Of a stretch of DNA of 22,117 bases, positions 16,381 to 18,593 are shown piece after piece (within the stretch, counting starts at the first letter, position 1; every line of letters starts with the position of its first letter). The DNA is from a virus, in the IMG/VR virus record IMGVR_UViG_3300042884_000605, positions 1 through 22,117 of that record; one strand, given 5' to 3'. The position numbers were made by a program, and so were the translations under genes. Under the pieces are notes generated by a model. That model did no database searches, was not told the DNA's origin, and saw only the letters and a program-made list of their open reading frames with translations.

Positions 16381-17679
16381 TTATCCGACAACATATTGTC
16401 CGTAACTTGGATTCAGTTCGAAATACATTCGCATCATTATAGCGTCGGCAACGTCTGGAGAAATACCTTCGCGATTCTTGATTATATCCTTCGGTGTGAC
16501 TTGCAACTTTCCGTCCACGTCTGCGCGGTGTCGTTTAATCATTTCGAGTTCACGAATGATTTGTTCTTTGCGTGTACTTGAAAGAATCGTTATCTTGTTT
16601 TCCTCAACGTATTGAGCCAACTTATAATAACATTCGCTTTTCAAATTTTGGTATTGCGGGTGCTTGGGTTTAGATCCATTGACAAATCCGCGACATTTTA
16701 AGAAGTCAACCACACCACCACCAACACCGTCCTCGTCACACACTACGTCTTGCAATAAAATCGAGTGCTGTTGACAGGTTAAACGAATCTTGTTCACAAC
16801 TTCGTCCAGCGCTGCTCTATTCAACTCAATTATATCGATGATAGTTAGACCTTCCCATACAATAATAATCGTTCTATCCTTCCCAAAACGCGCAATGTCG
16901 GCTGTGATATACTTCTTGCCTTCATTGATTACTTCGTTTCGGAACATTCGAAGAAGATTCTCCGTGTTGAACAACTTGTCAGAGTCGTCGTCAAACTCCC
17001 AGTTGCCTTCTAAAAGTCTTTTCCTGTCGTATTCGGGAAGTTTCTGTAAGTTCTCTAAATAAGTCTGCGAGATGTATGGGTTGTCCGTTGGTAACGCTTG
17101 TACAAAAGCGCGGTCATTTCTCAATTCACCTTTCAAATTAGCGTAGTAAAAGTCATTATACAACCAACCCTTTGAAGGATTACAAGTCATTAATCCCTTT
17201 GCTCTGTCATTAATCAATTTATAACGTACACGGCTTTGCAAGATGTCAATACAACGCTTCGAAACTTCCGCTACTTCATCTACGAAATAGTCAGTAATTT
17301 CAATCGACCCAAATCTCTGAAAGTCGGGGTCTGAGGGCATATCTGCCAAGTCCATTAATATCGTTTGGCTTCCGTTGTACCACTTAATAACGTGGTCTTG
17401 TCCGTTGTAGGTGTAATGTACATTCGGTTTCAATCCGTGTAAGGTACAAAGTTCAAAGAAGGTTTGCATCGTTGACAAGCGCAACTTCTTTAATTCAGCA
17501 CGACCAATTAAACCCTTTGTCCCTGGGTATTTTAGTCTTCGTTTTATCTGCCAATCGCAACCAAGAAAAGACTTTCCACTAAATACACCGCCACCATATA
17601 AGACCTGCGCAATAGGACTATCTATTGAAAGCAATTCCAACGCGTACTTTTGTTTGTCGTGGTAAATTATTTCGGGCAT
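16381..17679 (-). CDS. Terminase large subunit
   Basis: A 432-residue DNA-packaging motor. ATPase domain: Walker A G29-GGVFSGKS37, Walker B D134-E135 in 'TDYFVDEVAEV', and coupling motif 'LMTCNPSKGW' (163-172). Nuclease domain: acidic residues D261 (TADIARFGKD), D315 (VVCDEDGVGGG) and D409/D412 (ISPDVADAIM). It would translocate genomic DNA into proheads through the portal and cut concatemers. The gene follows the methyltransferase with a one-base stop/start overlap. No terminase small subunit is recognisable in the window. The portal gene lies about 4 kb away on the other strand, whereas they are usually adjacent. Confidence 0.9.
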   Translation of the reverse strand: MPEIIYHDKQKYALELLSIDSPIAQVLYGGGVFSGKSFLGCDWQIKRRLKYPGTKGLIGRAELKKLRLSTMQTFFELCTLHGLKPNVHYTYNGQDHVIKWYNGSQTILMDLADMPSDPDFQRFGSIEITDYFVDEVAEVSKRCIDILQSRVRYKLINDRAKGLMTCNPSKGWLYNDFYYANLKGELRNDRAFVQALPTDNPYISQTYLENLQKLPEYDRKRLLEGNWEFDDDSDKLFNTENLLRMFRNEVINEGKKYITADIARFGKDRTIIIVWEGLTIIDIIELNRAALDEVVNKIRLTCQQHSILLQDVVCDEDGVGGGVVDFLKCRGFVNGSKPKHPQYQNLKSECYYKLAQYVEENKITILSSTRKEQIIRELEMIKRHRADVDGKLQVTPKDIIKNREGISPDVADAIMMRMYFELNPSYGQYVVG

Positions 17680-18593
17680 TAAAATAGTTTTAGTTGTAGT
17701 TTTTCTAACCTATCCATTTCATCAATTACTTTGAAAATTTCATAAGCAACTTGAGGAACGATAGCATTTCCGTAACCCTTTATAGATTCTTGTCGCCATT
17801 TAGGAAAGGTAATTCCGTCCAGTTCGGCGGGAAGCCCATCATCTCTGCCACAAATCGGGGATTGAGTTGGGAAGTTGTTCCAGTATTTAAGAGTCTTGTT
17901 AATGTCATTGAATGCATTGATCCCTCCTTCACTTGTGAACTCTTCATTGTCGCACTCGCATTCGTGCTGTCGAATACTGTCGGAGTTGGTAACATTCCCC
18001 TCTGATAAACAAACCCCGATTGAATTTCCTGTGCAAGCGTTCCGCTGTTCCCAAACTTTTGTTCCTTCTTGCTCAGATTCTCGCTGTATGAATCCATTGC
18101 GCTTGGTGTTTTTAGCAATAAACCAAACCCTATCTCTTCTATGGGGCGCACCGACGGCACAAGCTGGCAAAAGTATCGGTTGTACTTCGTACCCTTGACT
18201 TTCCAAGTCAACGCACACTTCTTCGAAGACCATTCCCCCATTCCAATTAGTAAGTCCACGAACGTTTTCGCCCACGACGTAGGTTGGCTTAATCTCTGAA
18301 ATTGCTCTGAGCATATGCGGCCAGAGGTGTCGCTCGTCCTCTTTCCCAAGTCGCTTGCCTGCGTGTGAATATGGTTGACAAGGGAAGCCTCCTGTGAGTA
18401 TATCAATTGTTCCTCTGTGAATAGAAAAATCTGTCTTTGTAATGTCTTCATAACTGATTGAGTTTGGAAAATAATGACTTAAAACTTTGCGTGGGAAAGG
18501 CATCCATTCACAATGAAATGTATTGTTCCAACCCATCCATTCAGCGGCTAAATCAAAGCCACCGATTCCACTAAACAAAGATCCGTGATTCAT
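17679..18593 (-). CDS. C5-cytosine DNA methyltransferase (orphan, Dcm family)
   Basis: A 304-residue enzyme that transfers a methyl group from S-adenosylmethionine to C5 of cytosine in a short DNA target. Motif I is LFSGIGGFD (6-14); motif IV GGFPCQPYS (68-76) carries the catalytic C72; motif VI is ENV (109-111); motif VIII HRRDRVWFIA (151-160); motif X GYGNAIVPQVAYEI (273-286). The target-recognition region lies between about 165 and 245, so specificity cannot be read. No restriction partner is seen, so it probably protects phage DNA from host restriction. Starts overlap the upstream stop by 4 bases. A second long reading frame lies inside it in the +1 frame (18451-17780). Confidence 0.92.
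   Translation of the reverse strand: MNHGSLFSGIGGFDLAAEWMGWNNTFHCEWMPFPRKVLSHYFPNSISYEDITKTDFSIHRGTIDILTGGFPCQPYSHAGKRLGKEDERHLWPHMLRAISEIKPTYVVGENVRGLTNWNGGMVFEEVCVDLESQGYEVQPILLPACAVGAPHRRDRVWFIAKNTKRNGFIQRESEQEGTKVWEQRNACTGNSIGVCLSEGNVTNSDSIRQHECECDNEEFTSEGGINAFNDINKTLKYWNNFPTQSPICGRDDGLPAELDGITFPKWRQESIKGYGNAIVPQVAYEIFKVIDEMDRLEKLQLKLF
17780..18451 (-). CDS. Candidate overlapping gene inside the methyltransferase (+1 frame), 223 aa
   Basis: Fully nested in the methyltransferase gene, shifted +1, from ATG 18451 to a stop at 17780; a stop in the same frame lies about 33 bases upstream of this ATG. The translation has protein-like blocks: WAKTFVDLLIGMGEWSS (60-76), LTWKVKGTKYNRYFCQLVPS (81-100), GFGLLLKTPSAMDS (108-121), MLPTPTVFDS (153-162) and QLNPRFVAEMMGFPPNWTELPF (195-216). 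The pattern 'LPTPT-D ... G-LNP-FVEWLMGFP--WT' is one I associate with proteins or domains accompanying phage cytosine methylases. This makes a real dual-coding gene plausible. Against it: no A-rich leader, and conservation could follow from the methyltransferase frame. Function unknown. Confidence 0.45.
   Translation of the reverse strand: MKTLQRQIFLFTEEQLIYSQEASLVNHIHTQASDLGKRTSDTSGRICSEQFQRLSQPTSWAKTFVDLLIGMGEWSSKKCALTWKVKGTKYNRYFCQLVPSVRPIEEIGFGLLLKTPSAMDSYSENLSKKEQKFGNSGTLAQEIQSGFVYQRGMLPTPTVFDSTNASATMKSSQVKEGSMHSMTLTRLLNTGTTSQLNPRFVAEMMGFPPNWTELPFLNGDKNL

Follow-up and report, generated by a model that had tools for sequence, protein, structure and literature searches.

A gene nested in the +1 frame of a viral C5-cytosine methyltransferase gene and its probable role as the motif IX subunit of a two-polypeptide enzyme

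The methyltransferase gene and its nested +1 gene

The viral DNA analyzed here (positions 1 to 22,117 of IMG/VR record IMGVR_UViG_3300042884_000605; 22,117 nucleotides, hereafter the window) carries a 304-codon C5-cytosine methyltransferase gene that wholly contains a second open reading frame (ORF) of 223 codons in its +1 frame. The products of the outer and nested frames are referred to as alpha and beta, respectively. An earlier note on this DNA had pointed to a 223-codon ORF with motif-like blocks inside the methyltransferase and had suggested that the same DNA may specify a second, methylase-associated protein in addition to the catalytic methyltransferase. The ORF and the quoted blocks are present as claimed, and stop-codon, selection and start-site tests support the suggestion. 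We conclude that the nested gene is almost certainly real and not a shadow of the methyltransferase, and that the locus probably encodes a two-polypeptide enzyme in which beta is the subunit with motif IX and the recognition modules. The locus contains the following features.

17679-18593, minus strand: alpha, outer frame, catalytic polypeptide of a C5-cytosine methyltransferase, 304 amino acids, motifs I-VIII and X
17780-18451, minus strand: beta, nested +1 gene from ATG to stop, 223 codons, modules and motif IX
18552-18581, minus strand: alpha motif I, SLFSGIGGFD (from the sequence; conserved in the alignment)
18372-18392, minus strand: alpha motif IV with the catalytic Cys72, GGFPCQP (invariant in the alignment)
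18114-18146, minus strand: alpha motif VIII, PHRRDRVWFIA (from the sequence; most positions conserved)
17769-18095, minus strand: alpha residues 167-275, without a confident fold (predicted local distance difference test score, pLDDT, < 50; frame 0 nearly neutral over codons 200-268)
17996-18112, minus strand: beta module 1, KTPSAMDSYSENL...FVYQRG (module catalogue; recurs in relatives)
17876-17989, minus strand: beta module 2, PTPTVFDSTNASATMKSSQVKEGSMHSMTL... (module catalogue; recurs in relatives)
17804-17866, minus strand: beta motif IX, LNPRFVAEMMGFPPNWTELPF, not in alpha (profile match and motif counts)
17745-17777, minus strand: alpha motif X, GYGNAIVPQVA (from the sequence; confident helix 280-303)

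The stop codon of beta occupies 17780-17782, and alpha motif X starts immediately 3' of it.

Open +1 frame, selection and translation start

Can an open +1 frame of this length arise by chance from the methyltransferase sequence? None of 500 synonymous-codon shuffles of the window gene left a +1 stretch as long as the 232 open codons observed (maximum, 199 codons). The +1 stretch is open over 172-330 codons in all of 80 IMG/VR loci (52-82% identity), which were collected by outer-frame protein search alone, and in nine GenBank phages (33-55% identity); the +2 frame of the relatives' methyltransferase genes contains about 13-31 stops each. Synonymous resampling of 41 non-redundant IMG/VR loci, which include the window and were chosen solely by the frame-0 protein, predicts 280.7 stops in the +1 frame, and none is observed. 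Over the 90 codons upstream of motif VIII, these 41 loci have 0 +1 stops versus 153.8 expected, and 102 non-redundant loci of all origins have 2 versus 357 expected; the 41-locus count is the unbiased figure because part of the 102-locus set was found via the +1 frame.

The substitution pattern changes at the borders of the nested ORF. Codon-position diversity shows a single-gene pattern upstream of the ORF (0.13/0.11/0.44), shifts to 0.23/0.08/0.14 over codons 240-268 and returns to 0.21/0.19/0.53 after the nested stop. An OLGenie-like substitution count for both frames over segments of alpha codons yielded ratios that are descriptive and without P-values because sequence pairs are non-independent: the +1 dNN/dNS ratio is 1.3 before the ORF, 0.83 (codons 50-110), 0.39 (111-164), 0.32 (200-268) and 1.3 after the ORF, the frame-0 dNN/dSN ratio in the same five segments is 0.16, 0.14, 0.24, 0.98 and 0.17, and +1 dSN/dSS in the C-terminal part of beta is 0.10. 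Purifying selection acts on the +1 frame within the nested ORF and is absent just outside it. The ratios per segment therefore indicate that constraint falls on frame 0 as far as motif VIII and again within motif X, and on the +1 frame between these two motifs, with the alpha frame near-neutral precisely where the +1 frame is most conserved. The earlier note had named frequent +1 stops in close methyltransferase relatives and normal synonymous variation in the overlap as signs against a nested gene, and neither occurs.

Both frames are selected as proteins, and beta has start signals of its own in Firmicute relatives. A Shine-Dalgarno-like site precedes a candidate nested start in 14 of 14 Firmicute loci tested, as exemplified by ACAAAGGAGGATTTTT-ATG in L165, with a mean of -8.6 kcal/mol versus -5.3 kcal/mol for inner start codons in equal draws; some of these loci are interrelated, and the top candidate in L156 and L163 is a TTG whose use is doubtful. 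Bacteroidota-like loci retain an ATG at outer codon 47/48 or 58. The Bacteroidota loci exhibit no clear Shine-Dalgarno excess before the nested starts, which is expected because such hosts use these sites little.

Division of the enzyme parts between alpha and beta

Alpha matches Pfam PF00145 (3.8e-45) and phrog_363 (2.1e-72), and motifs I, IV (PCQ), VI (ENV) and VIII all reside in its single chain. Its sequence match to M.HhaI and M.HaeIII in the PDB covers residues 5-161 or less. The predicted model of alpha is confident over motifs I-VIII and over the helix of motif X, falls below a pLDDT of 50 between them and can be superposed on the large domains of M.HaeIII and M.HhaI. The small domain of these two enzymes contains both the variable region and motif IX (PMC3404938). 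As modeled, alpha has no confidently folded counterpart of this small domain, and motif IX was found in alpha in 0 of 102 loci. Alpha does not take the usual one-chain form, in which the recognition domain and motif IX belong to the same chain.

Judged by its motifs, the small-domain part that is missing from alpha appears to lie in the +1 frame in these loci. Motif IX was found in beta in 95 of the 102 loci, and LNPRFVAEMMGFPPNWT of beta sits immediately before the motif X of alpha. The motif IX profile of beta matches actinophage tails that continue into motif X (E 2.8e-10, an optimistic value because the tails were selected by motif pattern), and the actinophage IX/X tails match canonical LTPRE..LQGFP...GN tails colinearly (E 1.7e-5). 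Motif IX is confined to beta and motif X to alpha; the actinophage relatives differ in that motif X is in beta. Beta matches phrog_1008 (1.6e-18), a family labelled 'DNA methyltransferase', and sequence searches of Pfam, NCBIfam, PADLOC and the PDB with beta gave no matches of use. Matches of beta to the SANTA domain (E 0.077) and to ribosomal protein eS7 (E about 0.5-1.5) fell short of any useful threshold and were dropped. The pattern 'LPTPT-D ... LNP-FVEWLMGFP--WT', which the earlier note had given for proteins or C-terminal domains that accompany cytosine methylases in other phages, fits the relatives, and those proteins, wherever examined, are themselves this second frame.

Between motifs VIII and IX, beta usually contains 1-5 'PTP' units with a median of 37 residues, most of which open with TP after L, M or W. 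The number and kind of modules differ between loci whose alpha N-terminal parts are 99-100% identical, and some units recur across phyla; counts of module types are rough because chaining under single linkage merges them into a single large cluster. The window and L013 are one pair of relatives with nearly identical alpha. Such interchangeable units in the position of the recognition domain suggest a role of beta in specificity.

Distribution in bacteria and phages

A scan with the +1 profile, covering one genome each from 84,980 species of bacteria and archaea, found 295 relatives. Among the best 80 of the 295, every beta match is in the +1 frame inside the alpha ORF (once partly outside), one copy is broken, and the titles name Bacteroidota, Bacillota, Burkholderiaceae, a Planctomycete, Desulfocapsaceae and Parcubacteria, with single metagenome bins possibly misassigned. 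A Mucilaginibacter copy (L142) is broken in both frames and is apparently decaying. All 24 Pseudomonadota loci from 299 genomes are nested, some of them overlapping each other, and a phrog_1008 search of 200 Bacillota genomes gave just 4 matches. The nested arrangement is also found in phages of Paenibacillus, Lacticaseibacillus, Komagataeibacter, Klebsiella, Microcystis and E. coli and is retained in all type-A phage loci examined. Coliphage Golestan (L332 595-1524) is a member with a 265-codon nested ORF, and 66 of 5,426 complete E. coli genomes contain a partial DNA match.

Actinophage relatives display other divisions of the same parts. In phiBT1 and Backyardigan, alpha ends directly behind motif VIII, and the modules, motif IX and motif X lie in a +1 ORF that overlaps alpha in part. 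In Tweety and Darolandstone, motifs IX and X are in frame 0, and the modules are partly in the +1 frame. The phiBT1-like contig L314 contains alpha, an overlapping beta and a second, different tandem beta (1968-2768), which is the sole beta found clear of an alpha gene; its start is uncertain, and no Shine-Dalgarno site is claimed because the GTG at 1968 lies within AGGAGGTGATC. L314 is a candidate for a system of one catalytic and two specificity polypeptides. The lack of non-overlapping homologues, which the earlier note had also listed as a sign against the gene, is nearly true, given that almost all are nested, but the actinophage homologues overlap only partly and one in L314 does not overlap at all.

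A distinct nested +1 ORF, type B (phrog_16143; '..LSDILE..KYYLSxKAxxGILRRA..'), was observed in L232, L235-L293 (Streptococcus phages) and L323-L331. Its host enzymes are canonical one-chain C5 methyltransferases whose frame 0 includes motifs IX and X. Type B terminates at codon 192 in almost every intact copy of the Streptococcus set, where it has the Shine-Dalgarno sequence AAGGAG and is itself under selection, with a +1 dSN/dSS of about 0.2.

Discussion

We propose that 17679-18593 encodes a two-polypeptide C5-cytosine DNA methyltransferase via overprinting. The outer frame would yield alpha, with a cofactor and catalytic domain (motifs I-VIII), an unfolded stretch and motif X. Beta would arise by separate initiation at the +1 ATG at 18451. 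Its N-terminal part, which overprints motifs IV-VIII, would be followed by the exchangeable PTP modules, most likely the target-recognition domain, and then by motif IX. The two polypeptides would jointly supply one full part set of a C5-methyltransferase and most likely assemble into an active enzyme, and module swaps in beta would alter the methylated sequence. Four points are our inference: that the polypeptides physically assemble, that each is needed, that the modules recognize the target and that the enzyme protects phage DNA from host restriction. On balance, we favor the view that specificity is written in the +1 frame, with beta as a cassette-built, exchangeable specificity subunit that has been kept across phyla and phages and the unfolded middle of alpha as its mere carrier; one alpha may then serve more than one beta, as in L314.

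Is a second protein needed to explain these observations? The earlier note had offered as its main alternative that the nested frame is a conserved shadow, open and similar among relatives merely via conservation of the methyltransferase and without a product. Part of the similarity is indeed forced, given that the LTWK...QLVPS block lies opposite conserved frame-0 sequence up to motif VIII. However, almost none of the hundreds of stops expected by synonymous resampling are observed, selection on the +1 protein starts and stops with the ORF while frame 0 is near-neutral where the +1 frame is most conserved, ribosome-binding sites precede the nested starts in Firmicutes, and L314 has a beta that overlaps no alpha. 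The shadow explanation is refuted for the family, and we give it practically no chance.

Two further explanations accept the +1 product. A programmed ribosomal frameshift would continue alpha into the +1 frame after motif VIII and generate one chain of motifs I-VIII, modules and motif IX; this order matches that of canonical enzymes, and a +1 shift in phiBT1-like phages would yield a complete enzyme. Such a shift has no need of an open +1 frame in the 90 codons upstream of motif VIII, where stops are nonetheless missing, and it accounts neither for nested starts with Shine-Dalgarno sites nor for the second beta of L314, which is unreachable by a shift from alpha. On these stop counts, start sites and the L314 locus, we regard frameshifting as very improbable. 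Beta could also be a real but independent overprinted phage protein, for example an anti-restriction or regulatory protein, as type B nested ORFs occur in enzymes with a complete-looking frame 0. This is unlikely, because beta supplies, from the same DNA position, the motif IX missing from alpha (and motif X too in actinophages), is always accompanied by alpha in the loci examined and has in M.EcoHK31I a working precedent for such a partition.

Several observations weigh against beta as a motif IX and recognition subunit. The AlphaFold model of beta alone is too poor (pLDDT 49) for a fold search and does not show the modules as a folded recognition domain. The motif IX profile match carries the selection effect noted above, and hardly any beta lies fully outside an alpha gene. 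Given that type B exists, a split enzyme cannot explain every nested ORF of this enzyme class. Furthermore, the recognition domain of M.EcoHK31I has been predicted to lie on its larger polypeptide (PMC3404938), whereas selection and modeling in the window family point to the smaller one.

The closest known enzyme is M.EcoHK31I of E. coli, compared here by its described motif layout. As in the window, the small ORF of M.EcoHK31I lies within the large one and uses a different frame, and both polypeptides are needed in vitro. In this two-polypeptide C5 methyltransferase (YGGCCR), the larger polypeptide has motifs I-VIII and X and the smaller one has motif IX alone (PMC3404938), a partition that the window shares, and the principle is therefore already known. 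The window family differs in the variable PTP module array of beta, in its spread over several phyla and phages, and in the free drift of the alpha stretch at the predicted place of the M.EcoHK31I recognition domain. M.AquI (CYCGRG), with a catalytic half of motifs I-VIII and a second polypeptide with the later motifs, resembles the actinophage relatives phiBT1 and Backyardigan, where motifs IX and X are on the second polypeptide; the window differs from it in having motif X in alpha and a fully nested beta. Members of PHROG 1008 and the GenBank 'g55 internal gene' of Paenibacillus phage Shelly are homologous beta proteins, and each of the two overlapping ORFs is annotated in the records of Shelly and Kiel007; no statement on dual coding, motif IX or function was found for them. 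A literature search retrieved no description of the nested family, with most subscription journals outside its coverage, and an earlier account may exist. We found no account of its breadth, of the modular beta or of the constraint on beta instead of alpha at the recognition position. The 'nested' genes of Quimbyvirus (PMC8008677) are unrelated and represent targets of a diversity-generating retroelement.

In the window family, selection acts on both frames over some 170-390 codons across distant phyla, and M.EcoHK31I therefore looks like one member of a large family. Tailed phages and bacteria rarely have large same-strand gene pairs that are fully nested, and usually just one gene of such a pair is annotated. 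If beta is the specificity subunit, phages would alter which sequences they methylate by reshuffling short modules that have to remain open in two frames simultaneously, and many 'complete' or 'inactive' methyltransferase entries would be without half the enzyme. In phiBT1 (L230 1393-1893 and 1511-2441), gp9.1 is annotated as 'may be inactive', and the half that it lacks corresponds to a +1 ORF left without annotation. The opposite of the usual omission occurs in Komagataeibacter phage phiKX1 (L218 2013-2621) and a Porphyromonas phage (L001 2456-3070), where the nested ORF alone is annotated and the methyltransferase frame was missed.
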